Virus record (IMG/VR): IMGVR_UViG_3300009154_000276 | Coordinates: 1-24,249 of that record | Source of the DNA: a virus | DNA: 24,249 nucleotides | Direction: 5' to 3' (one strand) | Shown here: positions 3,001 to 24,249 of the stretch, piece after piece | Layout of the letters: each line of letters begins with the position of its first letter | Numbering within the stretch: the first letter of the stretch is position 1 | Notes under the pieces: generated by a model | Told to the model about the DNA's origin: nothing | What the model saw: only the letters and a program-made list of their open reading frames with translations | Databases searched by the model: none | Position numbers and translations under genes: made by a program

Positions 3001-5065
3001 CGTCGCGCAGGCCGCCACAGATGTCGCGAAAGCGTCACGCGGCCCGGCCGAACAAATTCGCCAAGCCCAGGAAGAGGTCGCGGGGGCGATCGAGCTTGGT
3101 CTGCCTGGGGCAAGGCTGTTCGGTGAAGAGCTTAACAAATCCGCAGAGCAGCTCGAGAAAGCATACAAGAATCTTGAGAACGCTGCGGCAGGAAAAGACG
3201 AAAGCGGTCGCGACATCGGGCCGGCTGAACAAAAGGCTCTCGTCGATACCGCAAGCGCCGAAATCAACACCATCCAGGCCGAACGCGCCCGCATCGCCGC
3301 CCAGTCTGACGCCCTCCGCTACGAACGCACCGTTGACCCGCAGCGGCAGATCGACGCTCGCATGGGCCGCGCCACGGGCAATCTGGGGGCCGCCGGCCTT
3401 GAGGACGGTCGAATCGCTCGCCGGATGCGGGAGATTGAGAACGAGCGCGAGACGATTCGGCAGCGATCGGCCCTCCCCGAGTTCCAGACGCCCGAGATGG
3501 TTCGCGGTCTGCAAGACGCCGAGCAGGCTCTCAACGAAGAGGCCGCCGCAATCGAAGCCGCGACGATCGCAATCAAGATATTCGCCGATGCTTTGAATCG
3601 TGCCTCGGAGGAGGCCAAAGGCAACCTAAACTCGGCGCAGCAGCGAGCCGACGAGGCCCGTCGTGCCGATCTGGGCAACAGCACGCCGCAGACTCAGGAG
3701 GCCCGCAAGCAGGCAGAGGCCGACCTTGAGCGGCAGAGAGAAGCCGAGCGTGCTGCACAGACAGAGATCGCAGTCGAGCGGGATCGGCTGGAGCAGATGC
3801 AGAAACCAGATGCAGAGCGGATTCAGCAGATCGACGAGGAGCTGAAGAGCGGTCGCAGCCCAGGCGACGAGGCTAGGACTCGGCTTGCCGAAGAGCGTTC
3901 AGCGCTGGAGGCGGATGTCAGCGGCAACAACTCGGCGGCCGCCGCGGATGTCGCTCGCGCGAGGAAGAGGAGCAGGGCCGCCGTGGCCCGAGAACGGACA
4001 TTGAACGATTTGGTAAATACAGCAAGAGACCTCGGCATTGACCCGACCGGCCTTGATGAAAAACAAATTCGCGATGCCATGCGAGATTCTGGCCGCGGCG
4101 ACCTTGCGGACGATTTTAATCGCCGCAACGACGAGGACAACGCCGCGATGGCGGCTGCCGGATTCACCTTTGAGGAGCGAGGGGCTGGATTCTGGGATAC
4201 CGTCACGAAGGCAGGCGAGGAACTCGCCGCCGCCTTGGCGCGTCAGGCCGAAGTCGTCAACGAAGGCGCAGCAAGACTCGCCGAAATGGATGCTCAGATC
4301 GCAGCCGTCCCAGAAGGCGACGGTCGCGAAGACCTAATCCGCGAACGCGAAGCCCTCCAAGCCAAGATGGAGGACGACGCGAGGGCGAGCCAAGCGAAAG
4401 TCGATGCCGCCCGAGACGCCAGCACACGCGAGGCCGAGCAGGCCAAGTCGGGCGAGCGTGGCCGCGAACTAACGCGAACTCCAGAAGAGAAATTCAAAGC
4501 CGAGACCGAACAGGGTCTCGCCGATATCCAGACATACTTCGAGAGGCGGGCAGAGGAGAACAACGGTATCCGCCCTGCCGGCGATGCGAAGGCCCAGGCA
4601 GATGCCGAGGAGCGTTTTCGCAAGGATCGCGAGAAGGAGGCCCGCACGGCCACGTCGGAGGGCCGCGGCGCTGAGCTAGGCATGACCGAACGAGATCGCT
4701 TCCGCCGCGACTTCAAGGAAGGCGCAGGGAAAGATATCAACGCCCGCGCCAAGGAACTCCGCGACCAAGGCGTCGATCCGACGAAGTTCCTCAAGCAAGC
4801 CGTCTCCAATCAGCTTGAGTCTGTTGCCCCCATGCTCAAGCAGTTCCAAGACGAGCGGCAGACCGCCCTGCTGCAAGGCCCGTCTCGAGCAGCTCTCAGC
4901 GTCTCCGACGTTTCGACGAGCCAGGGGGCCAGCGAACTGACCCGCCTCATTCGTGGCGACGATTCGGCGAAGGACGTGAACCTCGCGGAGCTGCGGAAGC
5001 AGTCAGGCTACCTTGAGGACATTAGGAACGACCTCAAGGCTAACAACCCAGGAGTTCTCCTCTAA
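1..5065 (+). CDS. Phage tail tape measure protein (5' end outside window)
   Basis: Sets tail length and travels through the tail tube during DNA ejection. At least 1,687 residues are visible. The frame is open to the left edge (codons from base 2), and the GTG at base 23 lies inside a repeat unit, so the true start is upstream. From the left: three tandem ~97-100-residue helical repeats, Ala/Glu/Lys-rich coiled coil, then around residues 720-777 (counting from base 23) a motif typical of tape measures, GYAIDDFL followed by LRAISNNITQLAFILGG and a hydrophobic Gly-rich stretch to about IIKW, a probable membrane-active segment. A very long charged coiled coil follows, with a C-terminus ending in LEDIRNDLKANNP, also usual for these proteins. 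At roughly 0.15 nm per helical residue the visible part implies a tail over about 250 nm. The stop overlaps the next start (TAATG). Family assignment is confident from length, composition and the hydrophobic motif. Confidence 0.9.
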   Translation, partial: TFTVTGKVQNIDQARSELARLQGDLSKLDESQRRPIAGNLVKLGKLVEAGDVTSLDTIRKLITQIENTIGKKLKINLSTSDADKKATELKGRLDALREELRFTVTGGFSNAGQIEAEVSRVTADIQKLDAAQKTAFGQRAMLVIDLIGQGKIQDAAIEVKNLRSDLDQQMELKVKTDAAQKAVDDFKAKMDQVREQNAFVITGRPQNREQAESRESNLRGEVGQLKGVQRGKFRGLLEDAAVARETGDLVKYNDALDKIDAKLGKAKRFNIRTAEAKKNLEDLNKDLRSIADALGPPVGMNRLKEATQAADAAVQKLGTSLDKTRLEADIGQLRVDLGAAEGLPAGAMKDQAIDSISTRAEGIAQDAGRVAGSDAAIEKARVRIASLNDAWAQAVRGLPETEAKADAFFTGIMADIGKLDLADRISLDPIIAEVMNLIQTGAGISTVTARMSELEAATKELASAGKVSTAIEKLSPTLSRSDLEARLAAAKAAATSPTPLTTPGETVDDVGREVELRGSLGKDLADSSRGLDLLKGGITTLKSQIDALPESVRARFIPAIRDAENEFVRLSTSSSALPGQIDAARQRVQQLATEASRAAQAMNFSASFGGAGATGVSLGLDQSALQGYNAQLQILQGYMSRIPSEAAGPAVAAFNQLRNAIAQAFDAGTINTAETRRELAALLQATSQTTAALAGVSAGRIERDMQRAGDIGRQGFDRFALAANQAGYAIDDFLSSTGGLEFKLRAISNNITQLAFILGGTTGLFIGLGAVIAGQVAIGIIKWINNGRTAEDQTKALNEALARQKSLVEELAEAFRSLGDSATRGIFSEQAQQAKDFAREVDNILKKQRELGLQRVVSNDPTIQRERAEQTKLKREIEKEENPTVRVGKQQQLRASEERERRRTQLIGVQPPPSAAEIRREVRLRATVPFRNAAEGIPEGTDVGSRVAQADAIRPAVDRLKEIVSEGNSSFDFGRFELASRQLEALGNLLDRLDRAIGDAVAQAATDVAKASRGPAEQIRQAQEEVAGAIELGLPGARLFGEELNKSAEQLEKAYKNLENAAAGKDESGRDIGPAEQKALVDTASAEINTIQAERARIAAQSDALRYERTVDPQRQIDARMGRATGNLGAAGLEDGRIARRMREIENERETIRQRSALPEFQTPEMVRGLQDAEQALNEEAAAIEAATIAIKIFADALNRASEEAKGNLNSAQQRADEARRADLGNSTPQTQEARKQAEADLERQREAERAAQTEIAVERDRLEQMQKPDAERIQQIDEELKSGRSPGDEARTRLAEERSALEADVSGNNSAAAADVARARKRSRAAVARERTLNDLVNTARDLGIDPTGLDEKQIRDAMRDSGRGDLADDFNRRNDEDNAAMAAAGFTFEERGAGFWDTVTKAGEELAAALARQAEVVNEGAARLAEMDAQIAAVPEGDGREDLIREREALQAKMEDDARASQAKVDAARDASTREAEQAKSGERGRELTRTPEEKFKAETEQGLADIQTYFERRAEENNGIRPAGDAKAQADAEERFRKDREKEARTATSEGRGAELGMTERDRFRRDFKEGAGKDINARAKELRDQGVDPTKFLKQAVSNQLESVAPMLKQFQDERQTALLQGPSRAALSVSDVSTSQGASELTRLIRGDDSAKDVNLAELRKQSGYLEDIRNDLKANNPGVLL
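5..886 (+). repeat. Three tandem ~97-100-residue repeats inside the tape measure gene
   Basis: Units begin at bases 5, 305 and 596 (300 and 291 bp apart), each opening with a beta-like F-[TV]-[VI]-T-G motif (FTVTGKVQN, FTVTGGFSN, FVITGRPQN). Each continues with an amphipathic helix rich in Asp/Gln, a conserved QK or QR turn, and a second helix ending near a short K-[FL]-[NK]-[IV] strand. A degenerate fourth unit may follow from about base 887. The right-hand boundary is approximate. The DNA has diverged while the protein pattern persists, so the duplication is old. The left edge cuts the array, so the number of units is unknown. Confidence 0.7.
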
Positions 5066-6159
5066 TGCCCAAGCTCGTCTCCGAACTCGCGCAGGGCAAA
5101 TCATTCAGCCGCAGTGCCGAAGGTGGCGGGCTTGCCGATCAGGCCACGCGAACGTGGAAGATTCTGCTCAACTCGCCGAACGAGTCATTCATCCTTTCGG
5201 AAGCTATCGGCGTCAACATCGGCGACCCTCTGGGGTCGCTGAACCCGATCCCGTGCGTCAGCATCGATGTCAAGGCAGACGGCGAGAGCCGCATGGTGCG
5301 GATCGTCACGGCGCAGTATCGCAGTAACCCCGGTATCGGCAGCGTAGACCCAGGCACGCAGTCGCCGACATTGCGTCCAGCGTTGTATTCGATGACAACG
5401 TCGCTGACGGAGATCGCTGCGTGGGGCGGCGCGCCGGTGACGAACGGCGAGTCTGGCGCGTGGATTCCGGCGGTGAACCCTGTCGGCGATCTTGTGGATG
5501 GGGTTACGCGACTCGAGCCGGTCGTGAACATCAACATCGATCAGTATTCTTCTTCGGACATGAGCCAACTGCTGGCTTACTGCGGATATGTAAACAGCGA
5601 CATATTCACGTTCTCGAATCTAAGCGTCGGCATTCACTGCTGTATGCTTCAAAGCATTTCGTCGCAGTCCATTGTTGAGCAATTTGGAGACGTGACGTTC
5701 AGAGGCTTCAAGGTTACGTTCGGGTTTGCTGTTAGGGCGCACTGGACAATCACTCGAGGTGGCTTCCAGGCCATTGGATGGGATATGGCCGTGCCGCAGA
5801 CGGGGTTTAATGTCATCAACTACGGCCTATCGTCACCAGATGTCGTTGACGTTGAAGCATTGACTCTTCAGCACGACGAAACCGGCAAGGTGCAACTCAA
5901 TAGCGCCGGAACGCCACAGACCTACGCTTTTGGGACTCAGACCAAAAGGACGAGGGCGATGGTTACGGTGCCCGCGACCCAAGGCGGATGGACACAGAGG
6001 CCGTCCGCCCAGCCGGTCGCACTCAACGACGACGGAACGCCGCGAAACACACGCGCGTTTCCGGTAGCCGAGAAAGTCCTCATCAACCGCATCTGCATCC
6101 AGCCCGAGATGGCTTTCGGCACTAACTTCTCAAACTTCGGCATACGCTGGTTCTCGTAA
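5065..6159 (+). CDS. Putative tail structural protein downstream of tape measure
   Basis: A 364-residue protein starting with an ATG that overlaps the tape-measure stop (TAATG), with an AGGAG motif 10 bases upstream, so translation is probably coupled. No signal peptide, membrane segment or catalytic motif is seen. Composition is that of a beta-rich virion protein: many Thr/Ser/Val/Gly residues, alternating hydrophobic strands (for example VVNINIDQYSS, VTFRGFKVTFGFAVRAHW) and no coiled coil. In siphophages the gene after the tape measure usually encodes a distal-tail or baseplate component, and that position is the main argument here. I do not recognise the family. A distal-tail (Dit-like) or hub-associated role is inference only. 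Confidence 0.7.
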   Translation: MPKLVSELAQGKSFSRSAEGGGLADQATRTWKILLNSPNESFILSEAIGVNIGDPLGSLNPIPCVSIDVKADGESRMVRIVTAQYRSNPGIGSVDPGTQSPTLRPALYSMTTSLTEIAAWGGAPVTNGESGAWIPAVNPVGDLVDGVTRLEPVVNINIDQYSSSDMSQLLAYCGYVNSDIFTFSNLSVGIHCCMLQSISSQSIVEQFGDVTFRGFKVTFGFAVRAHWTITRGGFQAIGWDMAVPQTGFNVINYGLSSPDVVDVEALTLQHDETGKVQLNSAGTPQTYAFGTQTKRTRAMVTVPATQGGWTQRPSAQPVALNDDGTPRNTRAFPVAEKVLINRICIQPEMAFGTNFSNFGIRWFS

Positions 6160-11908: not shown

Positions 11909-14265
11909 GCGACATCTCTGTCACAGTCACGAACGCCGGCGCGACCGGCGTCTCCGTCGTTAACGGAGATGCGTTCAATACCGTTGTTGGCGACGGCGGC
12001 TCTGTGAATGTTTCGATTGGCGAAGTCACTCCCGGCAACGGAACGATCGTATCCGGCACGCTGACAATCAACAGTGTTGTTACGCTGCCAGCAGGCTCGT
12101 CGGCGTATGTGAAGAACGACGCCGGGACGGCCTATGCGGCGAAGCTTGACATCGGCCTGCCGGCGGGGCCGGCGACGAGCATCAACATTGGCAACACAAC
12201 GACCCTGTCTCCTGGGTCGAACGCCACCGTATCTGGCGTAGCCAATGGCAGCAACCTCACGCTTTCGTTTGGAATTCCTCGAGGTGCCAGCGGACTCAAC
12301 GGCGCTACGCCAAGTTTCTCCATAGGAAACGTGACGACTGGCGCGGCCGGATCGTCCGCGTCTGTCACTGCAACGACCGCCAACAGCGGAGCAAATGTCA
12401 CCCTAGACCTAACGATCCCACGCGGCAATCAGGGCACGAACGGGACGAACGGGACGAACGGCACGAACGGGACGAACGGTGTTACGCCGAGCTTCGCCAT
12501 TGGCAATGTGACGACTGGTGCAGCCGGATCGTCTGCGGCGGTGACGGCAACAACAACAAATAGTGGGGCTAACGTCACGCTAGACCTGACGATCCCGCGA
12601 GGGGATCAGGGCGTCAACGGCACAAACGGAACGGACGGAACGTCATTAACGCTTTCCGATGCCACGCCAGCCAACCTCGGGACGGCCTCTGCGGGAAGCA
12701 GCAACCTCGCAAGCAGAAGTGATCACACGCACGCGCTGCCGATTATCGCATACGCGAACCTGTCTGGCGTGCCCAGCAACTTCCCGACAAACACCACGCT
12801 CGTCTCGGGTTTGTCTGCTGGGTACGCGACCATCAATCACGGCCACAACTACGTTCAATCATTCAACAACTTGACTGGCAACCTCACGCTGGTGGCAGGA
12901 AGCAACGTCACGCTGACTGCAAACGGCTCGACCCTCACGCTGTCCAGCACTGGCGGGCTCGGTGCAAACGACTCAATCGATGGCGGCGACTACGTCGGGG
13001 AAATCTTCAACGGAATCACGATAACGTCGCAGCCTCTCAGCGCCAGCTCTGCGACGGCCGTTGTCTCATGGTCGTCGCAAACTTCGCCTTCTAATCTGAC
13101 CGTTTCGGGCTTGTCTTATGCAAATGGCGCATTTTTCGCGCTTGGAACCGGCAAAGTTGCAACATCGTCAAATCTGTCGGCGTGGACTAGCGCGAACCTC
13201 CCGCAGAACTTTGCTGCATCGGAGATGTCCTACGGCAATGGGGCGTATGTTGCTGCTGGTAAATCTTCATCCGCAGGCGGCATACCGTTCCCGGTCGCTA
13301 GGAGCACTGACGGAGCAACATGGTCATCTGCGTCTGGCGACACTTCTTTCAGCTACGACTTTTCTTCTATTGCATATGGCGGCGGCCTGTTTGTCGCAAT
13401 GCTGCAAGCACAGGCAAACTCGACGTACATCGTCAATTATTTCACGTCGCCAGATGGTTCGTCGTGGACGATGCGATCGATGCCGTACAACTCGGGGAAC
13501 GCGGTGCGAACCAGCGCGGTTTCTGACATTGCATATGGCAACGGCGTTTTTGTTGCCACTGTAAATTCAGTGAATCTTGACACTCGGTCTAATGTCCACA
13601 CGCAATATCTGACCAGCACCGACGGACTGACTTGGACGATTCGAGATTTGCCTTCCGCTTGCTGGAGTGGCGGCATTGCGTTTGGCAATGGCGTGTTTGT
13701 TTTGCTACCGCTTGCTGTTGGGAATCCTTACCCAGAAACAACTAACACTCTCTATACGTCAACAAATGGCGTGACATGGACTGCCGTGACGCTACCAGTG
13801 GCGAACTATTGGTCGCGCGTCAGATGGTGCGGCGGTGCGTTTGTGGCAACGAGGGGTGCTTTCGGTGTTGGAACCGGAACCGGCACAGACGTTATATGGA
13901 GTAGCACCGGGGCGTCGTGGACGCTCGGGTCGCTGCCGTCCTCTGGCGATTGGTTCTACGTCGCTGGTGGCGGCGGAACGGCTCTCGTAGCGTCGTCGTC
14001 GGCAATGGCAAAAGCGACTGTCGCGGCAGGCTCTGTCTCGTTTTCGACGGCAGCGACGATAGCGGGCGGGGCGACGTTGACGTATCAGTGGCAGGTCAGC
14101 ACAGACACCGGCTCGACTTGGTCGAACATCAGCAGCGCGACATCATCAACGCTGTCTCTTAGCGGCCTTACGATCAGTGATAGCGGCAAGCGGTATCGAT
14201 GCGCGATTTCCGCAACCGGCTCGGCTACCGCCTATACCCAACCAGCCATCCTCACGGTCACCTAG
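11905..14265 (+). CDS. Large tail fibre with collagen-like stretch and beta-propeller
   Basis: 786-residue fibre or adhesin. N-terminal Ser/Thr/Gly-rich beta region (residues 1-130), two copies of a 59-residue repeat (135-252) with a GTN collagen-like insert at about 177-191, a fibre motif DHTHALP near 272, and a Gly/Thr-rich shaft to about 380. Residues 400-690 hold six to seven units with [ILV]-x-[YF]-G-N-G-x-F-V-A then S-x-D-G-x-T-W, Asp-box-like, as in sialidase-type beta-propellers. The last ~78 residues (from about 709) are Ig-like, with YQWQVSTDTGSTW and GKRYRCAIS. ATG overlaps the previous stop. A host-surface-binding role is inferred from these modules. No enzymatic residues are recognised. 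Confidence 0.85.
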   Translation: MSDISVTVTNAGATGVSVVNGDAFNTVVGDGGSVNVSIGEVTPGNGTIVSGTLTINSVVTLPAGSSAYVKNDAGTAYAAKLDIGLPAGPATSINIGNTTTLSPGSNATVSGVANGSNLTLSFGIPRGASGLNGATPSFSIGNVTTGAAGSSASVTATTANSGANVTLDLTIPRGNQGTNGTNGTNGTNGTNGVTPSFAIGNVTTGAAGSSAAVTATTTNSGANVTLDLTIPRGDQGVNGTNGTDGTSLTLSDATPANLGTASAGSSNLASRSDHTHALPIIAYANLSGVPSNFPTNTTLVSGLSAGYATINHGHNYVQSFNNLTGNLTLVAGSNVTLTANGSTLTLSSTGGLGANDSIDGGDYVGEIFNGITITSQPLSASSATAVVSWSSQTSPSNLTVSGLSYANGAFFALGTGKVATSSNLSAWTSANLPQNFAASEMSYGNGAYVAAGKSSSAGGIPFPVARSTDGATWSSASGDTSFSYDFSSIAYGGGLFVAMLQAQANSTYIVNYFTSPDGSSWTMRSMPYNSGNAVRTSAVSDIAYGNGVFVATVNSVNLDTRSNVHTQYLTSTDGLTWTIRDLPSACWSGGIAFGNGVFVLLPLAVGNPYPETTNTLYTSTNGVTWTAVTLPVANYWSRVRWCGGAFVATRGAFGVGTGTGTDVIWSSTGASWTLGSLPSSGDWFYVAGGGGTALVASSSAMAKATVAAGSVSFSTAATIAGGATLTYQWQVSTDTGSTWSNISSATSSTLSLSGLTISDSGKRYRCAISATGSATAYTQPAILTVT
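12307..12660 (+). repeat. Two direct 177-bp coding repeats in the fibre gene
   Basis: Unit one starts at 12307 and unit two at 12484. Both encode a TPSF[SA]IGNVTTGAAGSS block and end with LDLTIPRG followed by a collagen-like N/D-Q-G stretch. Protein identity is high while many third codon positions differ, so this is an older duplication kept in frame. Confidence 0.85.
12433..12477 (+). repeat. Five 9-bp tandem repeats encoding Gly-Thr-Asn
   Basis: Five contiguous GG[CG]ACGAAC units give (GTN)5 in the fibre, a collagen-like Gly-x-x run. A shorter version (NGTNGTDG) recurs at the end of the second 177-bp unit. The 9-bp length keeps the reading frame, so slippage would change shaft length without a frameshift. 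Confidence 0.9.
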
Positions 14266-14269
14266 ACAC

Positions 14270-15208
14270 ATGGCTAATAAAGTAAAACCAGCGCGGTCGT
14301 GGGTGGCAAACTATGTGCCAACCGTGCTTGACGCCAACGAGCTGGCGATCAACTGGGTGGACGCGAAGGCGTACACGAAAGACCCAGGCGGCAACATTGT
14401 CAGCATCACTCTCGGTGGTGGCAGCAGCGGTGGCGGTGGTGCCGACGCTGTGCTGCGGGCATTATTCGTCCCCGCTGCGCCAACAAGCGTGACGGCAAGT
14501 GCCGGCAACGCACAGGCAGTCGTGTCGTGGACTGCGCCAACCGTTTTGTCGGTCACGCCAATCACTGACTATGTCGTGCAGTTCAGCAGCAATTCCGGTT
14601 CTTCGTGGACAACTTTTGATGATGGCAGCAACACGTCAACAAGTGCGACTGTCACTGGGTTGACCAATGGCACTGCGTATGTGTTCAGAGTGGCTGGCGT
14701 GAACGGCGTGGGCGTCGGGAGCTACTCCACGGCATCAAATTCGGTGACGCCGAGTAACGCAGTGTTCCGCGCGATCCCGACTCTGACGAGCAACACGTCG
14801 GATGGAACGGCAGAGGCAAACACGGTTGGCGGTGGTGCTGTTTGGAATTTGTTTGACGGCAGTAGCAGCGAATACAACACGGCACGAAACGGCTCGGACA
14901 CGCCAAAGAGGTATTTTCAATACACGTTCGCCGGTGGCGTAAAGTCTTACATCGGCGGCTACACGTTCACTGGGATGGGCAGCAGGGACTACAGCATTGG
15001 CGGGTGGGAGTTTTCGGGTAGTAACGATGGATCGACGTTCACGCTGCTTGACTCGCAAGTCATCTCATGGCAAAGCGGCGGGCAAACGAAGTCTTTTACG
15101 CTGGCGTCACCGGCGAATTACTCGACTTATCGATGGACTCTTACGCCTGACGGCACGAGCGACTCGTTTGCTGGCCTGAGTGCGGTGCAGTTAAACGCTG
15201 TGTCGTAA
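14270..15208 (+). CDS. Fibronectin-III fibre protein with discoidin-like C-terminus
   Basis: 312 residues from ATG 14270, four bases after the previous stop. The longer frame to 14177 lies over the large fibre and is not used. N-terminus MANKVKPARSWVANYVPTVLDANELAINW is a probable attachment module (about 1-60, ending in a Gly-rich hinge). Residues ~64-165 are a fibronectin type III domain (AAPTSVTA, VSWTAPT, ITDYVVQFS, ATVTGLTNGTAYVFRVAGVN). Residues ~165-312 look like an F5/8 type C (discoidin) sugar-binding fold: GGYTFTG, W-E-F-S-G-S-N-D-G-S-F, RWTLTPDG. A homologous but divergent pair of domains recurs at 18335. Predicted host-receptor binding. Confidence 0.78.
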   Translation: MANKVKPARSWVANYVPTVLDANELAINWVDAKAYTKDPGGNIVSITLGGGSSGGGGADAVLRALFVPAAPTSVTASAGNAQAVVSWTAPTVLSVTPITDYVVQFSSNSGSSWTTFDDGSNTSTSATVTGLTNGTAYVFRVAGVNGVGVGSYSTASNSVTPSNAVFRAIPTLTSNTSDGTAEANTVGGGAVWNLFDGSSSEYNTARNGSDTPKRYFQYTFAGGVKSYIGGYTFTGMGSRDYSIGGWEFSGSNDGSTFTLLDSQVISWQSGGQTKSFTLASPANYSTYRWTLTPDGTSDSFAGLSAVQLNAVS

Positions 15209-15211
15209 AGC

Positions 15212-15370
15212 ATGAACGACAACGAAACCATCACCGTCGCCCTTGCCTACGCGGCTCTCGCGTTGGTCGGCCCCGTCATCCTTACGCGGTTGCTCCAGTG
15301 GGCCGAAAGCGACGAGGCGCAGAATCTGGCATATGAGATCGGCATGGCAATTGAGGGGGCGACACGATGA
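15212..15370 (+). CDS. Small membrane protein, 52 aa
   Basis: Short gene from ATG 15212, three bases after the previous stop, to a stop overlapping the next start (ATGA). The product begins MNDNETITVALAYAALALVG. A hydrophobic helix covers about residues 7-28, followed by a charged amphipathic tail (QWAESDEAQNLAYEIG). It sits directly before the small beta-sandwich gene, just as the membrane protein at 11225 does. No family is recognised. Holin-like or membrane-anchoring roles are guesses. Tight coupling on both sides supports it as real. Confidence 0.6.
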   Translation: MNDNETITVALAYAALALVGPVILTRLLQWAESDEAQNLAYEIGMAIEGATR

Positions 15371-15693
15371 GCAGCACATACAGCTTGCTACCCGGCACAA
15401 TGAATCTTGCCTTTAAGAAGTCTGGAGACTTCTCGACTCTGATCGACTTCGACGGCACTACTCTCGTCGGCTACACCGTAACGGCGAGCATGACGAGCCT
15501 CGTCACTGGTACTACCGTGATACCATTCTCGACGACGATCACCGACGCCTCCTCTGGTCAAGTCAACATCGCACTCACAGACACGCAGACCGCCTCTCTC
15601 GCCGCTGGCACCTACGGCTGGCAACTGGGTTGGACGGCACCCGGCAGCGTGCAGCGGACTGCTCTGAGCGGCACCGTGGAGGTCTACGCATGA
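15367..15693 (+). CDS. Small beta-sandwich tail protein, paralogue of the gene at 11543
   Basis: 108 residues, all-beta: LPGTMNLAFKKSGDFSTLIDF, then GYTVTASM, NIALTDTQTASLAAGTYGW, LGWTAPGS and RTALSGTVEVYA. Each block corresponds to one in the protein at 11543, although sequence identity is modest. GAGGGGG lies upstream, the start overlaps the previous stop (ATGA), and the next gene starts the same way, so the three genes here are a coupled set. Baseplate or fibre-attachment role is inferred from family resemblance and neighbours. Confidence 0.72.
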   Translation: MSSTYSLLPGTMNLAFKKSGDFSTLIDFDGTTLVGYTVTASMTSLVTGTTVIPFSTTITDASSGQVNIALTDTQTASLAAGTYGWQLGWTAPGSVQRTALSGTVEVYA

Positions 15694-15965
15694 CGCAGAT
15701 CACGGCGAGTGTTTCGTCGCAGCCGATCACGGCGACAGTCAACGCCTCGGGGAACATCTCCGCGAGCGTCGGCTCGTCTGTCGTGACGGCAAATGCTGGC
15801 GGTGGCATCGGGCCGCAGGGGCCAGCGGGCAATGCTGGTGCTGGTCTCGGAGACCTTGTTGATGTGAACTTGTCGAGTGTGCAGGACGGTGATGTTTTGC
15901 GGTATGGCGCGACGAAGTGGCACAACGTCAACGAAATTCAACTTACAGACGGCGGAAATTTTTAG
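15690..15965 (+). CDS. Short collagen-like fibre protein
   Basis: 91 residues from ATG 15690, chosen because GGAGGT lies 6 bases upstream and ATGA overlaps the previous stop. The longer frame from 15630 reads over the upstream gene. The N-terminus is a repetitive Ser/Thr/Val beta region (ITASVSSQPITATVNASGN), followed by collagen-like GPQGPAGNAGAGLG, then a fibre motif DLVDVNLSSVQDGDVLRYG and W-x-N-V-N. Such DGDVLRY segments are usual in phage fibre shafts. It parallels the front part of the large fibre at 11905, as a miniature version lacking the adhesin domains. Confidence 0.7.
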   Translation: MTQITASVSSQPITATVNASGNISASVGSSVVTANAGGGIGPQGPAGNAGAGLGDLVDVNLSSVQDGDVLRYGATKWHNVNEIQLTDGGNF

Positions 15966-15983
15966 TCCAAGGAGGATTTTGCG

Positions 15984-17072
15984 ATGTCGAACGTCATTCG
16001 GATAAAGAGAAGAAACGCAAACGGTGCCGCAGGCGCGCCGTCAAGCCTTCAGCAAGCGGAGCTTGCTCTGAATGAAGCAGACGGCGTTCTCTACGCTGGC
16101 TTCGGAACCGGCGGTGCGGGCGGCAGCGCGACTACGATCGCATCGATTGGCGGCACAAACTGGGCGAGCAAGGCGTATGTCACCAGCGCGGTCGCTGCCG
16201 TGGACGTTTCCTCGCAGCTTGCCAGCTACGCTCTCCTCGCATCGCCAACGCTAACCGGCACGCCAAACTCGACGACCCCCAGCACGTCTGACAACTCGAC
16301 TCGCATCGCAACCACCGCGTATGTCCAGGCTCAGTCCTATGTGACGACGGCTGCGAGGCTCGACCAGTTCGCCGTGCCGACGAGCAGCGTGTCGATGAAC
16401 TCGCAGAAGATCACGAACCTCGGGACGCCAACAGCCGACGGCGATGCCGTCAGTAAGTCCTATGCCGACGCTCTCCGCAGCGGACTTGACGTGAAGCAGT
16501 CAGTGCGAGCCGCTACCACGGCGAACATCACGCTCTCAGGCACGCAGACGATCGACGGCGTGGCCGTGATCGCTGGAGACCGGGTGCTGGTCAAGAATCA
16601 GTCATCGGGCTTGCAGAACGGCATCTATGTCGTCGCGGCTGGCTCGTGGTCGCGGGCTACGGACGCAGACGCAGACTCAGAGATCAATCCGGGGATGTTC
16701 TGCTTCGTCGAGGAAGGCACGGTCGGCGCGGACACGGGCTGGGTCTGCTCGAACAACGCTCCGACGACCGTCGGCACCACGGCCCTAACTTTCGCTCAGT
16801 TCAGCGGTGCAGGCTCGTTCTCTGTGGATTCGACCCTGACCAAGACCGGCAACTCGATCGGCCTGACCTCGGGCATCGCCACCGCTGGCACCTACACGAG
16901 CGTTACGGTTGACACCTACGGTCGCGTGACGGCGGGCAGCACCCCAGCGATGCAGTCGCAGATCACGGCAGTCGGCCTGCTCAAGGGGGCGGGTGCGGGC
17001 AGCGTGTCGGCGGCGGTGGCAGGGACGGATTACCTCGATGGCAACAGCACTCTTGATTGCGGAAGCTTTTGA
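15984..17072 (+). CDS. Tail fibre protein with Mtd-like N-terminal module
   Basis: 362 residues with the best ribosome-binding site of the array (AAGGAGG 8 bases upstream). The N-terminus VIRIKRRNANGAAGAPSSL, then ELALNEADGVLYAG, fits the conserved N-terminal attachment module of many phage fibres (as in the Bordetella phage tropism determinant and others). The middle has ITNLGTPTADGDAVSKSYAD and VKNQSSGLQNGIYVV, both frequent in fibre shafts. The C-terminus carries TVDTYGRVTAGSTP and a short Gly/Ala end. Predicted trimeric, beta-rich shaft. It probably links the fibre cluster to the baseplate. No receptor-binding domain is recognised at its C-terminus. Confidence 0.8.
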   Translation: MSNVIRIKRRNANGAAGAPSSLQQAELALNEADGVLYAGFGTGGAGGSATTIASIGGTNWASKAYVTSAVAAVDVSSQLASYALLASPTLTGTPNSTTPSTSDNSTRIATTAYVQAQSYVTTAARLDQFAVPTSSVSMNSQKITNLGTPTADGDAVSKSYADALRSGLDVKQSVRAATTANITLSGTQTIDGVAVIAGDRVLVKNQSSGLQNGIYVVAAGSWSRATDADADSEINPGMFCFVEEGTVGADTGWVCSNNAPTTVGTTALTFAQFSGAGSFSVDSTLTKTGNSIGLTSGIATAGTYTSVTVDTYGRVTAGSTPAMQSQITAVGLLKGAGAGSVSAAVAGTDYLDGNSTLDCGSF

Positions 17073-17075
17073 TCG

Positions 17076-18332
17076 ATGGCGAACACGATCCGTAACCTTT
17101 ACTCGAACACGGCAGGCAACACGCCTTCGTCGCTTGGCAACGGCGTCATCGCCCTGAATCAAGCCGATGGCAAGTTGTTCTACCGCTCGTCTGCCGGTGT
17201 CGTCACGGCACTGGCAACAGGCAGTGGCGGTGCAACGCAGGTGTACGAGTACGCGACGACGGCGAACTTCCCTGCCACTGGCAGTGCTGCTCAGTTGGTT
17301 ATCGCGACCGACACGGGGCGAGTCTATCGTTGGGCGGGTGCTTCTTACATCGAGATTGGCCCTCTCGGTGGTGCCGCGACTGACACGCGGTGGGATTTGT
17401 TCTTGCCTGCCGCCCCAACAAGCGTGACGGCGATGTCTGGCGATACGCAAGCCACATTGTCTTGGACTGCTCCAACTGTGGCTGTTCCAGTGACGGACTA
17501 CCTCGTCCAATACTCTTCCAACTCTGGGTCTTCTTGGACGGCGTTTAGCCGATCTGCTTCTACTGCCACAAGTGCGACGGTCACAGGGCTAACCAACGGA
17601 ACAAGCTATGTGTTCCGCGTAGCGGCGGTTAACGGTGTTGGCACCGGAAGTTACTCATCAAGCAGTAACAGTGTCACAGTGGGTGGAGATCCCTATTTCT
17701 CGTCAGTTGCGCTGTTGCTCCGAATGGACGGCACAGGAAACACGTTTACGGATTCCAGCGGCACGCCAAAGACGATCACAGCCAGTGGCAACGCAACGCA
17801 ATCGACTGCCCAGAGCAAGTTTGGTGGAAAGAGCGCGTATTTTGCGGCATCTGGAGATTATCTCTCGATGTCTGGCGTAAACGTAGGCACGTCGGATTTC
17901 ACGATTGAAATGTGGGTCAAGACGGCAAGCAGCGTGCAATACGCACAGCTTATAGGTAACGAAAATGCCTCAACAAACGAAGGATTTTCCCTGCTCATAA
18001 ACAACAACTCCTCTACTGGCGGACAGATCGCTCTGTACCGCGGAGGCTTGGTTGTTTCAACGCCTTCTGGCGATTACTCAGACGATGCTTGGCATCACGT
18101 TGCGGTGAGTAGAAGCGGAACAACTGTGAGGTTGTACGTTGACGGCACGCTTGCCTCAACAGGAACATCATCGTCAAGTTTTTCGTCGACTGCGCCAATG
18201 TATATCGCCTACAACAGCCAGTTTCCGCCGAGAAACATGATTGGCTATATAGACGATGTCAGAGTCAGCACCGTGGCAAGGTACACAGGATCAACGCTCA
18301 CCGTCCCAGCAGCGGCATTTACTAACTTTTAA
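17076..18332 (+). CDS. Fibronectin-III fibre protein with LamG-like C-terminus
   Basis: 418 residues. N-terminal module MANTIRNLYSNTAGNTPSSLGNGVIALNQADGKLF is a relative of the preceding protein's N-terminal pattern. A T-x-x-V-Y-R-W-x-G-x-S-Y-x-E-I-G-P element follows (about 85-100), then a linker DTRWDLFLPAAPTSVTA. A fibronectin type III domain covers ~108-204 (SWTAPT, TDYLVQYSSNSGSSW, TSYVFRVAAVN). The last ~205 residues are a LamG/concanavalin-like jelly roll: LLLRMDGTGNTFTDSSG, FGGKSAYF, DFTIEMWVK, WHHVAVSRSG, VRLYVDGTLA, IDDVRV. The family binds glycans, so this is a likely receptor-binding fibre. It shares 26 identical bases with the next gene at the domain junction. Confidence 0.85.
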   Translation: MANTIRNLYSNTAGNTPSSLGNGVIALNQADGKLFYRSSAGVVTALATGSGGATQVYEYATTANFPATGSAAQLVIATDTGRVYRWAGASYIEIGPLGGAATDTRWDLFLPAAPTSVTAMSGDTQATLSWTAPTVAVPVTDYLVQYSSNSGSSWTAFSRSASTATSATVTGLTNGTSYVFRVAAVNGVGTGSYSSSSNSVTVGGDPYFSSVALLLRMDGTGNTFTDSSGTPKTITASGNATQSTAQSKFGGKSAYFAASGDYLSMSGVNVGTSDFTIEMWVKTASSVQYAQLIGNENASTNEGFSLLINNNSSTGGQIALYRGGLVVSTPSGDYSDDAWHHVAVSRSGTTVRLYVDGTLASTGTSSSSFSSTAPMYIAYNSQFPPRNMIGYIDDVRVSTVARYTGSTLTVPAAAFTNF

Positions 18333-19500
18333 ACATGGCACTCTCCCTCCCAGCATCACCGACAGTCGGTCAACTATCCGTTCAAAACGGCCGCACCTAC
18401 ACATGGAGCGGCTATGCGTGGGAGTTGACGCTCGCTGCCATCGGCACAACTACGGCCGAATACGCGGCTACGACCGCGTTCCCCTCGCCGGGCGTTGCCG
18501 GAATCTTGTATGTGGCGACAGACACGGCAAAAACATATCGCTGGACGGGCAACTCTTACGCGGAGCTTGGCCCGGTCGGCGGCAGCGTGGCCGACACGCG
18601 GTGGGATTTGTTCTTGCCCGCTGCGCCGACCAGCGTGACGGCATTTGCTGGCAATGCGCTGGTGACAGTGTCATGGACTGCACCAACTGTTCTGGCGCAG
18701 ACACCGATCACCGACTACACCGTGCAGTATTCGACAAACTCTGGGTCGTCTTGGACAACGGTTAGCAGGTCGGCATCAACGGCAACGAGCGCGGTCGTCA
18801 CAGGACTAACAAACGAAACAAGCTACGTTTTCCGCGTGGCGGCGGTGAATGGAGTCGGAACCGGCAGCTACTCAACGGCAAGCAGCGCTGCGACACCGGC
18901 GTCGTATGTTTTCCGCGCGATCCCGGTTCTTACGAGCGCGACATCCAGCGGCGTTGCATCGGCCAGCGCAACTCTAAACACCCAATTGCAGGCTTGGCGC
19001 GCGTTTGATAAGACGACTATCAATGACAACACCTACTACGCATCACCTGGTAATTGCGTTGGACATTGGATTCAATACGACTTTGGCAGTGGCGTATATA
19101 GCAACATTGGGGGGTACTCTATTACCTCGCGCTACAACACTGAATACGGTGATTCTACTTATGGAGAATCCCAAGCCCCAGTTAGTTGGACTTTTTCTGG
19201 TTCAAACAATGGAACAGACTTTGTAGTTTTGGACACTCGCACAAACTATCAATCGTTTACTTCAAATGGGCAGCCCAGAACATTTACATTATCAGCCGCG
19301 GCAAATTATCGCATATTTCGATGGACGTGGACAGCTAACACACCCTCTACCGCAGTAGTCATTCCCAAGCTTCAGCTTGTTTCCCCGTAAAACCTGACTT
19401 TTAACCGTGGCACTCTCATTCCCATCATCGCCAAGTGTCGGTCAATTGTCCTCGCAGAACGGTCGCACGTTTACTTGGACAGGTTCGGCGTGGGACTTGG
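18325..19500 (+). repeat. Duplicated start region of two adjacent fibre genes
   Basis: Copy one begins at 18325 and copy two at 19397, offset 1,072 bp. Both have ACTTTTAA, two bases, a start codon (ATG or GTG), then GGCACTCTC and the same MALS-x-P-x-SP-x-VGQL-S-x-QNGRT-[YF]-TW protein start over about 90-100 bp. In copy one the TAA of the repeat is the stop codon of the upstream gene. In copy two it is a non-coding remnant. Confidence 0.75.
18335..19390 (+). CDS. Fibronectin-III fibre protein with discoidin-like C-terminus (second)
   Basis: 351 residues. N-terminus MALSLPASPTVGQLSVQNGR then Y-T-W-S-G-Y-A-W is shared with the next gene. A second Y-R-W-T-G-N-S-Y-A-E-L-G-P element and DTRWDLFLPAAPTSVTA are shared with the previous gene. 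Fibronectin type III domain at ~91-189. The C-terminal ~160 residues are discoidin-like, similar in pattern to those of the 14270 protein (GGYSITS, SWTFSGSNNGTDF, RTFTL, YRIFRWTWT). The C-terminal part is visibly AT-richer than its surroundings, consistent with separate acquisition. No ribosome-binding site is visible, so translation probably depends on coupling with the previous gene (stop 2 bases upstream). Confidence 0.82.
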   Translation: MALSLPASPTVGQLSVQNGRTYTWSGYAWELTLAAIGTTTAEYAATTAFPSPGVAGILYVATDTAKTYRWTGNSYAELGPVGGSVADTRWDLFLPAAPTSVTAFAGNALVTVSWTAPTVLAQTPITDYTVQYSTNSGSSWTTVSRSASTATSAVVTGLTNETSYVFRVAAVNGVGTGSYSTASSAATPASYVFRAIPVLTSATSSGVASASATLNTQLQAWRAFDKTTINDNTYYASPGNCVGHWIQYDFGSGVYSNIGGYSITSRYNTEYGDSTYGESQAPVSWTFSGSNNGTDFVVLDTRTNYQSFTSNGQPRTFTLSAAANYRIFRWTWTANTPSTAVVIPKLQLVSP

Positions 19501-21148: not shown

Positions 21149-21270
21149 GAGCAGTCCTGTCGAAGTGCCTCGCAGCCATCGCCATCGCAATAGCCATCGT
21201 CGCGCAGGCTCTCATGTTCGCTGCCGAGACCCTCGGAGACATGAGCGATGAGTGGAACTCCGACTCCTAG
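21133..21270 (+). CDS. Small membrane protein, ~41-45 aa
   Basis: A short frame running out of the end of the preceding gene. Start is either GTG 21133 (GAGG 10 bases upstream) or TTG 21145, which overlaps the previous stop as TTGA. The product is mostly one hydrophobic helix (LSKCLAAIAIAIAIVAQALMF) followed by an acidic tail ending in DMSDEWNSDS. It ends with TAG inside a CTAG shared with the integrase stop on the other strand. Holin-like or Rz1-like roles are guesses. Reality is moderately likely from coupling and composition. Confidence 0.5.
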   Translation: MGGALRAVLSKCLAAIAIAIAIVAQALMFAAETLGDMSDEWNSDS

Positions 21271-22121
21271 ACAACCTTGGGCAGGACGCTCGGGGCCGGC
21301 ACGCCTGGGCTGACGATCCTGGGGTCAAGGTATTTTTTCGTGACCGCAGGACTCGAGTGATCAAGCAGCCGCTGGGCTGACCCGCCGGCCGCCTCGTAGT
21401 AGCTCGCCGTAGTCTTCCTGATCCTGTGGAACTTGCACCGCCGATCGCTGGGCAGTCCAGCTCGCTGAAGGATGATCTTCAAGATTCGCCAAAGGCATGT
21501 GCGGTGCCGATCCCAAGGAATCGCCGTGTCGTCGGGGCCGCGGCGAATCGCCAGAAGGGCGTCGGCGCATTCGACGCTGATTTCGCGGAGGATGTCCCGC
21601 CGCCGCCCCTTGCGCTCCTCGGCGCGGAAGATCACGTTGCACCCGCGAACGTCGCCGGCCCGCACATCAACGACCGAAGCTATCCGTTCGCCCGTGTCGT
21701 AGCAAAGAAGTAGGATCGCCTTCCACACCGCCGCCGCGGGAAAGCCGCCGATGCGGCCCTGCTCCTGGGCGGCGGCAGCCAGGATCGCCTTCATCTCGTC
21801 GGTCAGCCATGCCTCGGGGATTCGCTCTGGCACGATAATCCGCGGCACCTGCGGCCAAGTGTCGCAGAGCTTTCTGCGGGCGCAGAACTCCCAGAGAGCG
21901 CGAACCTGGGCGCGATCCTTGGCTGCCGTGGCCGCCGACAGCTCGCGGATGCGGCGGGCCAGAAACCGGGCCACCGACAACTCCTCGAGATCGGTGGTCT
22001 CTGGCGGACGCCCGAGCACATCGCCCCAGGATCGCAGCGTGTATCCGTATAGCGTGATCGTGCGGTCGCTGACGCCTGTCAGCGGCGCGTAGAGATCACG
22101 CAGGACGTGGTGCAAGAGCAT
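21267..22121 (-). CDS. int: Tyrosine recombinase (phage integrase)
   Basis: Site-specific recombinase of the lambda Int/XerC family that would integrate and excise the phage. From ATG at 22121 the protein has 284 residues: N-terminal core-binding (SAM-like) domain with helices to about 100, then the catalytic domain with R146 (DTGERIASV), K171, H232-x-x-R235 (FHRIRKT), H255 (LLDHSS) and Y264 (KKYLD), a full catalytic set. ATG 22121 is chosen because AAAGGAG sits 9 bases upstream. The frame extends 18 codons further to 22175, through the terminator T-run. No typical N-terminal arm-binding domain is evident, so it is a short integrase. It is transcribed towards the fibre array, convergent with it. 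Confidence 0.93.
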   Translation of the reverse strand: MLLHHVLRDLYAPLTGVSDRTITLYGYTLRSWGDVLGRPPETTDLEELSVARFLARRIRELSAATAAKDRAQVRALWEFCARRKLCDTWPQVPRIIVPERIPEAWLTDEMKAILAAAAQEQGRIGGFPAAAVWKAILLLCYDTGERIASVVDVRAGDVRGCNVIFRAEERKGRRRDILREISVECADALLAIRRGPDDTAIPWDRHRTCLWRILKIILQRAGLPSDRRCKFHRIRKTTASYYEAAGGSAQRLLDHSSPAVTKKYLDPRIVSPGVPAPSVLPKVV

Positions 22122-22130
22122 GGGGTGTCT

Positions 22131-22145
22131 CTCCTTTAAAAGGAG
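22131..22145 (-). promoter_or_regulatory. Integrase ribosome-binding site inside a perfect inverted repeat
   Basis: On the minus strand CTCCTTT, T, AAAGGAG reads as a 7-1-7 inverted repeat, 9 bases before the integrase ATG. The AAAGGAG half is the Shine-Dalgarno motif. A transcript could fold with CTCCT pairing to AGGAG over a 5-base loop, hiding the ribosome site. It could equally be a DNA operator. Confidence 0.5.
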
Positions 22146-22162
22146 TACCACTTCCATGCGAG

Positions 22163-22199
22163 AAAAAAAGAACACGCGCCCCCCCTTGGGGGGGCGCGT
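22163..22199 (-). terminator. Strong intrinsic terminator upstream of integrase
   Basis: Twelve-base-pair stem: ACGCG plus seven C (22174-22185) against seven G plus CGCGT (22188-22199), with the inner C-G pair closing only two bases (effectively a tetraloop). On the minus strand the stem is followed after four bases by seven T (complement of the A-run at 22163-22169). It would end transcription from the small gene at 22218 before integrase. Confidence 0.8.
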
Positions 22200-22217: not shown

Positions 22218-22421
22218 TTATGAGAGTTCCGAAAACTTTTCCGGCGTCAGGACAAAAGCGCTTGTTAGGCGGCAATGAGGCCACTGTGAGCCAATTGTTC
22301 GCAACCACTTCTCGCGGGCCTTCTCTGCGGCCTGGGCGGGTGTGGGCGTCACCACGACGATCTCGTCGGCATCGAGTTGAGACTCTGACTCCCATTCGCA
22401 AATCACCGTGTAGCGAGGCAT
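22218..22421 (-). CDS. Small protein upstream of integrase, 67 aa
   Basis: 67 residues with a good ribosome-binding site (GGAGGT 8 bases before the ATG). Sequence MPRYTVICEWESESQLDADE, then IVVVTPTPAQAAEKAREKW, reads as strand, strand, helix, strand, a compact alpha/beta fold rather than shadow coding. Directly after its stop come a GGGAAA/TTTCCC hairpin and the strong terminator, so it is probably a one-gene transcript. It has no helix-turn-helix, so an excisionase role is not supported, although position between the control region and integrase suggests a related accessory. No family is recognised with confidence. Confidence 0.65.
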   Translation of the reverse strand: MPRYTVICEWESESQLDADEIVVVTPTPAQAAEKAREKWLRTIGSQWPHCRLTSAFVLTPEKFSELS

Positions 22422-22471: not shown

Positions 22472-22502
22472 CCGTGTGGCACCATGCGTCGGTTCCACAC
22501 GG
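22472..22502. repeat. Perfect 8-bp inverted repeat in the control region
   Basis: CCGTGTGG (22472-22479) and CCACACGG (22495-22502) are exact inverted copies separated by 15 bases, with half-site centres 23 bases (about two helical turns) apart. The spacing suits a dimeric DNA-binding protein or recombinase arm sites. The likely candidates are the tandem-wHTH protein encoded at 22629 or the integrase. Confidence 0.5.
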
Positions 22503-22507
22503 CTGTA

Positions 22508-22527
22508 TTCAAATCCCCTATCCTCCA
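22508..22527 (+). other. Possible attP core resembling a tRNA 3' end
   Basis: TTCAAATCCCCTATCCTCCA reads like the T-loop, T-stem 3' side, acceptor 3' strand and discriminator of a tRNA. No matching 5' half is present (no GGAGGAT upstream on the plus strand, no T-stem partner). A bare tRNA 3' end in the control region of an integrase-bearing phage is the usual form of an attP. Chance similarity over 20 bases is possible. Confidence 0.3.
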
Positions 22528-22628
22528 CTCGTCAAGAGGGGGGCCGTGACGATTAGGCGAAAGTTGGCTTTTGGGCAGGCCACGCGGGTATTCTTCATCG
22601 GCGGCCAGATCGCCAGAAGGCAGACAGC

Positions 22629-23168
22629 ATGGCAAAGAAGCAGATCGATCAGGCAATCGGCTCCTGGGAGGCCGCGTGCCTCTTGGGCGTGCATTGGACA
22701 ACCCCCGCCAGAATGGTGGGGAAGGGGCTCCTGACGAGCCGCACCCTGGCATCCCCGGTAGTCAGCGACCCCGAGCGTGTGTTCAGCATCTACTCCCTTG
22801 CTGAGTGCGAGGCCGACTGGGAGGAATACTCTGAGCAACTCAAGCAGGGCGGCTCCGGCAAGCGGCCTCGTGCTGGCGTTGACCTCCGGCCGCCGATGGT
22901 CAAGGCATTGGCCGCGCTCAAGCACCAGATCGCATTCGGCGATGCCGTCTCGACCGGCGAGGCCGCGGAGATCATGAACGTCCATTGGACGTTCCCGCCG
23001 AGGATGGCGCAGCAGGGGAAGATCGTGGCGAGGATTCTCGTCAACGCGAGAAATAACCGCAGCCGATGCTGGATTTTCTCGCGAGCCGCCTGCGAAGCTA
23101 ACGTGTCCCTCGCCCGCCGGCTGCAAACGGCCGGCACGAAAAAAGGTCGGCACAGAAACCTCGCTTGA
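22629..23168 (+). CDS. Protein with two tandem winged-HTH-like domains
   Basis: 179 residues with two related units. Unit one (about 12-70) has SWEAACLLGVHWTTPARM, then KGLLTSRTL and IYSLAECEADW. Unit two (about 108-165) has STGEAAEIMNVHWTFPPRM, then QGKIVARIL and IFSRAACEANV. The shared pattern EAA-x-[LI]-[LM]-x-V-HWT-x-P-x-RM with a wing and a C-terminal CEA helix resembles MerR/excisionase-type winged helix-turn-helix folds, but the HWT core is unlike the usual one. They are joined by a basic linker (KQGGSGKRPRAG). The start has AGAAGG upstream. It divides the control region from the helicase and may be an excisionase, repressor or activator. Family certainty is moderate. Confidence 0.7.
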   Translation: MAKKQIDQAIGSWEAACLLGVHWTTPARMVGKGLLTSRTLASPVVSDPERVFSIYSLAECEADWEEYSEQLKQGGSGKRPRAGVDLRPPMVKALAALKHQIAFGDAVSTGEAAEIMNVHWTFPPRMAQQGKIVARILVNARNNRSRCWIFSRAACEANVSLARRLQTAGTKKGRHRNLA

Positions 23169-23193
23169 CCGATCTTCATTAGTAGCCTAATAT
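23165..23193 (+). promoter_or_regulatory. Near-consensus sigma70 promoter for the helicase
   Basis: TTGACC (23165-23170), 17-base spacer, TAATAT (23188-23193). Start of transcription would be near 23200. It lies over the stop codon of the upstream gene and 28 bases before the helicase ATG, with AAAGGAG (23205-23211) between. Box spacing and match are the best in the window. Confidence 0.75.
23178..23191. promoter_or_regulatory. Small palindrome overlapping the helicase -10 box
   Basis: ATTAG (23178-23182), TAGC, CTAAT (23187-23191) is a perfect 5-4-5 inverted repeat covering the spacer and the first half of TAATAT. A repressor binding here would block the promoter, and the wHTH protein just upstream is the obvious candidate. 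Five-base arms are short, so chance is possible. Confidence 0.35.
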
Positions 23194-23220: not shown

Positions 23221-24249
23221 ATGCTCTGGACACATCAGAAGGAAGCGATTGAGTGGGCGAGCGGTCGCCGTGACGCTCTTCTGTGGCTCGGAATGGGCTG
23301 CGGAAAAACGCGAGTGGCGCTCGAGATCATCAAACTGGCGATGCTCGCCGGCTCTTTTCGCCGCATCTTGGTCGGCTGCCCGAAGGCAGTGATCCCTGCC
23401 TGGGCGAAACAGGTGGCAATGTGGCTGCCAGAGATTCGCATCGTCCTGCTTGACCGCGGCACATCGGCCGACAAAGGCCGGCAGATCATTGCCGCGATGG
23501 CTGATACGTCTGCCGTGATCATTGTCGGCAACTACGAAAGCCTGTGGCGGATCAAGGAGATCGAAAAAGTCTCCTGGGACTGCTTCGTCTGGGACGAGGT
23601 TCACCGGCTCAAGTCGCCGTCGGGGGCCGCGAGCAAGTGGGCGGCGAAGATGGGCAAGCGGAATCCGACCGCGAAGCGTATCGGCTTGAGCGGCACCCTG
23701 CTCGCGCAAAGCCCCCTTGACGCCTACGGCACTTGGCGAGCCGTCGAATCGCCGGAGTGTACCACTTTTGGTACGACCTACTCGCTCTTCAAAGCGACCT
23801 ACGCGATCACAAATCCTGCGATCCCCGGCATGGTCATCGGCTGGCGGAACAAGGAACAGTTTGCGGCCCGCGTTGCCGCGACGACATTCCAGCGCAGGAG
23901 CGAGGATGTTCTTGACCTCCCGCCGATCCATCACATTGAAGTTCCGGTGGAGATGTCTGCCAAGGAGGGCCGCGTCTACACCCAGCTCGAGAAGGATTTT
24001 TGTGCCGAGGTCGATGGCGGTTTCATAACACCGCAGAACGCGATGGTTGGCCTGCTCCGAATGCTCCAGGCCACGAGCGGATTCATGAGGCTCGACGATA
24101 CCGTCTCTGCGAGGCAGATCGACGAGGTGCCGTCGAAGCGGGCTGCGTTCGCCGAGATGCTCGAGGATATGCCCGAGCATGAGCCGCTGGTGGTGTTCTG
24201 TCGGTTCCGGTCGGACATCGACAGCGTTCTCCACGTTTGCGAGCAACTG
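23221..24249 (+). CDS. SNF2-like DNA helicase (3' end outside window)
   Basis: An ATP-dependent DNA translocase or helicase of superfamily 2, 343 residues visible with no stop before the right edge. ATG 23221 has AAAGGAG 9 bases upstream. Motifs: Q-like HQ at 5-6, Walker A G24-M-G-C-G-K-T30, DEVH box D125-E-V-H128, motif III S157-G-T159, and the start of the C-terminal helicase lobe (LVVFCRF near 325-332). The order matches SNF2/DEAD-type phage helicases used for replication or recombination. The antisense frame over the same DNA is a shadow. Driven by its own promoter, it probably starts the early or replication operon to the right. Confidence 0.93.
   Translation, partial: MLWTHQKEAIEWASGRRDALLWLGMGCGKTRVALEIIKLAMLAGSFRRILVGCPKAVIPAWAKQVAMWLPEIRIVLLDRGTSADKGRQIIAAMADTSAVIIVGNYESLWRIKEIEKVSWDCFVWDEVHRLKSPSGAASKWAAKMGKRNPTAKRIGLSGTLLAQSPLDAYGTWRAVESPECTTFGTTYSLFKATYAITNPAIPGMVIGWRNKEQFAARVAATTFQRRSEDVLDLPPIHHIEVPVEMSAKEGRVYTQLEKDFCAEVDGGFITPQNAMVGLLRMLQATSGFMRLDDTVSARQIDEVPSKRAAFAEMLEDMPEHEPLVVFCRFRSDIDSVLHVCEQL

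Follow-up and report, generated by a model that had tools for sequence, protein, structure and literature searches.

The gene at positions 22629-23168 of the window, which is the entire 24,249-base IMG/VR virus record without an attached host genome, encodes a protein with two predicted wHTH units in one chain, and this tandem protein is conserved in dozens of uncultured phages whose hosts are probably Planctomycetes. Judging from sequence profiles and from a structural model, both domains are members of a known superfamily, the Xis/MerR type (HTH_17), together with the phage excisionases and BldC; each domain is ordinary, and the fused twin form is new. The protein may well be a Cox/Apl-like one, the product of the first gene of an early operon, controlling divergent promoters and possibly excision. 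For a module that is conserved among uncultured phages, the analysis yields an attachment site, a probable class of function and a probable bacterial target, the tRNA-Ala(GGC) of Planctomycetes. The features of the region were as follows.

21267-22121, minus strand: tyrosine integrase (Pfam Phage_integrase, E 3.9e-9; PHROG integrase, E 2.2e-22; alignment of 10 relatives).
22174-22199, minus strand: hairpin resembling a terminator, between the integrase and the small ORF.
22218-22421, minus strand: small ORF of 67 aa (MPRYTVICEWES...) between attP and the integrase, with homologues in 65 of 73 loci.
22472-22502, no strand assigned: upstream inverted repeat with 12-nt arms, 92% complementary, and 7 nt between them.
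22508-22529, plus strand: predicted attP core, TTCAAATCCCCTATCCTCCACT, all 22 nt of which match the 3' end of tRNA-Ala(GGC) of Planctomycetia.
22629-23168, plus strand: tandem-wHTH gene (ORF of 179 aa with an ATG start, internal homology, relatives and a model with pLDDT 83.3 and pTM 0.78).
22650-22844, plus strand: N-terminal wHTH domain, residues 8-72 (modelled strand 8-10, helices 12-19 and 25-31, strands 37-42 and 50-56, helix 57-72).
22932-23129, plus strand: C-terminal wHTH domain, residues 102-167 (modelled helices 109-116 and 122-128, strands 134-138 and 146-151, helices 152-157 and 159-167).
23133-23156, plus strand: basic tail, residues 169-176 (G-x-K-x-G-R-x-R), conserved in the family.
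23165-23193, plus strand: promoter-like site TTGACC-17-TAATAT before the helicase (1 found, 0.3 expected).
23221-24249, plus strand: SNF2/DEAD-type helicase running past the window end (Pfam SNF2-rel_dom, E 5e-17; PHROG DNA helicase, E 1e-68).

The gene is real, because relatives of its product with 31-96% identity were found in dozens of contigs. The two halves of the protein are homologous: in local alignment they scored 89, whereas shuffled sequences (n=5,000) averaged 23 and never exceeded 48, and the shared EAA...VHWT-x-P-x-RM, wing and CEA helix that had been noticed in an earlier, sequence-only reading of this DNA were corroborated. Across relatives, the positions A, EA, H, T, P, G and S are common to both domains. 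The VHWT core, which that reading had singled out, is indeed present in the window protein but it is typical of the closest clade only; among the 39 family members compared, H22 is invariant while the W and T vary. The tail residues G169, K171, G173, R174 and R176 are kept in at least 92% of the same 39 members. We found no literature on this tandem wHTH family among open-licence papers.

The NCBIfam profile TIGR01764 ('excise') matched the C-terminal domain of the window protein at residues 108-132 with an E of 1.2e-5 and 25.5 bits, below the curated cut-off of 28.8 bits, and among 39 diverse relatives it matched 33 with an E of at most 0.1, the best one at 3e-9. The PHROG families 'excisionase and transcriptional regulator' and 'excisionase' were detected in 23 and 17 of the 39 relatives, respectively. 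A Pfam search with the window protein alone gave no match, PDB sequence-profile searches gave nothing significant (the best was Cox, 4lhf, with E 0.84), and a search of annotated phages returned a single, insignificant match. An AlphaFold model built from 15 sequences, which gave the scores listed above (an earlier model from four near-identical sequences, with pLDDT 38, was unusable), predicted two wHTH units, each half consisting of an HTH, then a two-strand wing and then a helix. When the whole model was compared using VIA-align, TraN of pIP501 ranked first and matched over both domains (Z 7.1-7.2, 96-102 residues, rmsd 2.4-2.9). Single-domain matches were BldC (Z 4.9) and Pukovnik Xis (Z 4.4), over about 51-54 residues at 1.3-2.4 A, and chains of the MerR family also aligned with the model domains. 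All the structural matches had Z < 8, values that are weak by themselves but agree with the sequence profiles. The top Foldseek matches in the PDB, tandems of KH domains, were rejected as chance because their rmsd was 11-15 and their TM about 0.2. The protein departs from the classical MerR layout, as the second wHTH is followed only by the short basic tail before the protein stops at residue 179; the C-terminal dimerisation helix and the effector-binding domain of that layout are absent. The excisionase families matched by profile search (TIGR01764, PHROG) and the modelled fold support the earlier proposal of a tandem wHTH protein of a predicted DNA-binding type.

TraN (PDB 4p0y, 4p0z and 4pm3) resembles the window protein in having two MerR/excisionase-like wHTH domains in one chain. 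TraN is a monomer described as an internal dimer, one HTH lying at either end; it binds DNA through both motifs and represses its operon (PMC4981023, PMC10877727). The window protein had been taken at first for an unrecognised form, and this was only partly right: its domains are of the known HTH_17 superfamily and the tandem 'internal dimer' is known in TraN. However, TraN chains have 114-117 residues, whereas the window protein has 179, with a linker and a basic tail; TraN is encoded in a conjugation (tra) operon, whereas the window gene lies beside phage integrase and replication genes; and no sequence similarity between the two was detected in the PDB profile searches. Pukovnik Xis and BldC, with which each domain of the model aligns, have a single domain, and BldC, unlike the window protein, is a developmental regulator and not a phage protein.

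The IMG/VR database was scanned with the integrase and with the helicase as queries, and not with the wHTH protein. All three genes were carried by 69 of 83 contigs, and their order, integrase (on the opposite strand), wHTH and helicase, was the same in 69 of 69; therefore, the three genes constitute a fixed module of one phage lineage. Four further contigs had the integrase and the wHTH gene only, seven had only the integrase, whose match was no more than about 560 bases from the contig end, and three had distant helicases (26-40% identity) without integrase and wHTH. Wherever a phage contig was long enough to show this, the wHTH gene adjoined the integrase. In the window the integrase is divergent and located upstream on the minus strand, so that the claim that the gene faces an integrase holds. 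The gap between the wHTH gene and the helicase was 10-143 nt across loci, and genes for an HNH nuclease, a Prim-Pol and a UvrD-type helicase were found 3' of the helicase in the relative L002. The wHTH gene would thus seem to head an early operon, with the replication genes after it on what may be a single transcript.

The integrase start (about 22121) was picked by eye, as an ATG with a good ribosome-binding site. The palindrome CTCCTTTTAAAGGAG, at 22130-22150, extends across what is likely to be the integrase's Shine-Dalgarno site (minus strand, by eye) and could form a hairpin able to hide it. Tail-to-tail pairs of homologous integrases, convergent with each other, were observed in nine contigs, e.g. 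L074 (3965-4849, plus strand, and 4815-5744, minus strand), L075-L078, L104, L107 and L157.

The attP core, which was absent from the sequence-only reading, sits between the integrase and the wHTH gene, and its identity to the tRNA end makes 22508-22529 the likely attP. The 19-nt attP pattern was present in 34 of 397 genomes of the class of the L031 metagenome-assembled genome (MAG), the reversed control in none of them, and ARAGORN called a tRNA-Ala(GGC) at the pattern site in 17 of the 20 loci fetched. In 43 of 73 loci the core CTATCCTCC preceded the wHTH start by 33-131 nt, and many other loci had a second tRNA-like end, CGCCTCCACT, before the wHTH gene. When 118 genomes were searched with one pattern for a host tRNA fitting this second attP class (..CCGCCTCCACT), none matched. 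In L085, L094, L099 and L113 the second class, upstream of wHTH, had the form TAGAGTGTTGCCGCCTCCACTCTA, an inverted repeat around the tRNA-like end. Just 3' of the attP core (e.g. in L072, L111 and L163) a loop of variable length and then the complement of the tRNA end come after that end (TCCACTT...AAGTGGA), a hairpin that is perhaps a terminator for the tRNA restored after integration.

The Planctomycetia MAG contig L031 carries the module, and its wHTH protein is 91% identical to that of the window; therefore, Planctomycetes are the likely hosts. It follows from the map that recombination at attP would leave the integrase at one prophage end and the wHTH gene at the other. No intact integrated prophage was found in the planctomycete genomes searched, which yielded only small elements or remnants with other integrases (G219), an otherwise isolated tandem gene (G052) and an unfused version (G389). 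The integrase and attP together are a candidate integration tool for Planctomycetes.

The excisionase profiles, the modelled fold and the place of the gene beside a tRNA-type attP and an integrase support, as a putative one, the lysogeny-switch or directionality role put forward from the sequence alone. Cox of P2 and Apl of 186 are excisionases that also control lytic and lysogenic promoters (PMC7498355). Their wHTH/HTH proteins are encoded, as in the window, at the head of the early operon before the replication genes and near att and the integrase. Because both the gene place and the domain type are the same, we favour a Cox/Apl-like role carried out by a built-in dimer. One molecule would set both its domains on neighbouring half-sites in the integrase-attP-early promoter region, and the bound protein would repress or tune the divergent promoters, its own included. 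Its accumulation during the lytic cycle would then lead to bending of the att DNA and to excision of the prophage by the integrase. The tandem protein presumably binds DNA and controls promoters; since its divergence tracks the helicase more closely than the integrase, regulation is better supported than a role in excision, which is the least certain part of the proposal. In contrast to the two fused domains of the window protein, Cox and Apl have one domain per chain and oligomerise on direct repeats, and no such repeats were found here. Over the 160 nt preceding the wHTH gene, the family as a whole showed no excess of direct repeats at 10-11 bp, one helix turn; an excess at 9 bp came from scattered loci, and no operator was recognised. 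If the fused protein steers excision, it would provide a simple single-chain system for relating the number and spacing of half-sites to the direction of recombination, a question usually blurred by many cooperating copies.

Two inverted repeats, at 22472-22502 and 23178-23191, had been proposed as binding sites, a proposal that is not supported, since neither one is conserved across the family. The first, described as widely spaced, proved to have arms just 7 nt apart. Its pairing is kept in the close clade only, with changed arm letters (the paired arms are GTCGGGCACC/GGTGCCCGAC in L062 and CTGGCACC/GGTGCCAG in L064), and is missing in distant relatives; the automatic repeat test across loci allowed no mismatch and misses the window's own copy. 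Because the arms change while the wHTH recognition region hardly changes, this repeat is probably not the operator of the protein and was rejected as such, a hairpin or a clade feature being more likely. The repeat at 23178-23191 lies inside the promoter-like site, whose hexamers are kept in the close clade while the repeat is not.

A dedicated excisionase, binding beside the att core and needed for excision, without promoter control, appears improbable. The excisionase-family profile matches, the predicted domain fold like that of Pukovnik Xis, the 33-131 nt between the gene and the attP core and its constant company with this integrase family in the phages all speak for such a protein. However, the gene heads the replication operon and not that of the integrase, no phased direct repeats were found near attP, and the planctomycete genome G219 has two wHTH-helicase pairs in elements with other integrases. 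In addition, the wHTH protein diverges in step with the helicase (partial r 0.74) more than with the integrase (0.34), and for this difference the bootstrap interval is -0.59 to -0.19; the result is a pointer only, because attP between the genes could allow integrase exchange and the entries of the distance matrices are not independent. A dedicated partnership with this integrase is therefore not indicated.

The same tracking of the helicase would suit a protein acting as a regulator only and taking no part in recombination. Like TraN, it would be an internal dimer that represses the early/replication operon together with its own gene, and another protein, e.g. the 67-aa product, would be the directionality factor; we consider this rather unlikely, if a serious alternative. 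The closest whole-protein fold match is TraN, a repressor (PMC10877727), and the promoter-like site stands directly before the helicase. The small ORF beside the integrase, moreover, is widely kept among the loci, 63 of its homologues lying between the integrase and the wHTH gene on the integrase strand, and its product is a possible partner or alternative directionality factor. Yet that product matches no known family and nothing in it points to DNA binding, while for the tandem protein the sequence profiles name excisionases first, and the integrase stands beside its gene wherever a phage contig is long enough.

The fixed pairing with the helicase gene at 10-143 nt and the correlated divergence could also indicate a replication-origin binding protein, which loads or guides the adjoining helicase. 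This we regard as very improbable, since the region showed no iterated sites of the origin type, both the fold and the profiles indicate a regulator or excisionase, and the helicase is of the SNF2 type and not a replicative hexamer.

The origin of the Cox/Apl-like candidate, with its built-in dimer, may be reflected in genome G389, where a homologue of the integrase is divergent from two consecutive small genes with a single HTH_17 domain each. Both matched HTH_17 (E 1.5e-11 and 8.9e-8) above the Pfam cut-off, and their tails resemble that of the fused protein: GKGRPRQ forms the end of one product, and GFGRVRN occurs close to the end of the other. This two-gene state suggests, as far as sequence comparison goes, that the tandem protein arose by fusion of adjacent genes. 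It is conceivable, if somewhat short of probable, that the lineage of planctomycete phages fused two adjacent excisionase genes into a built-in dimer, a single molecule of which governs the early-promoter switch as well as the direction of recombination, and that the unfused state survives in a relative. A tandem HTH_17 gene was also observed in L202 (8918-9514), directly after a tRNA-His gene and with its open frame overlapping the tRNA; the region is otherwise ordinary chromosomal, and the gene is perhaps the remnant of an element. Elsewhere in the window, at 14177-19390, successive ORFs with repeated segments (AAPTSVTA...VSWTAPT and relatives) were noticed by eye, as in mosaic tail-fibre genes.
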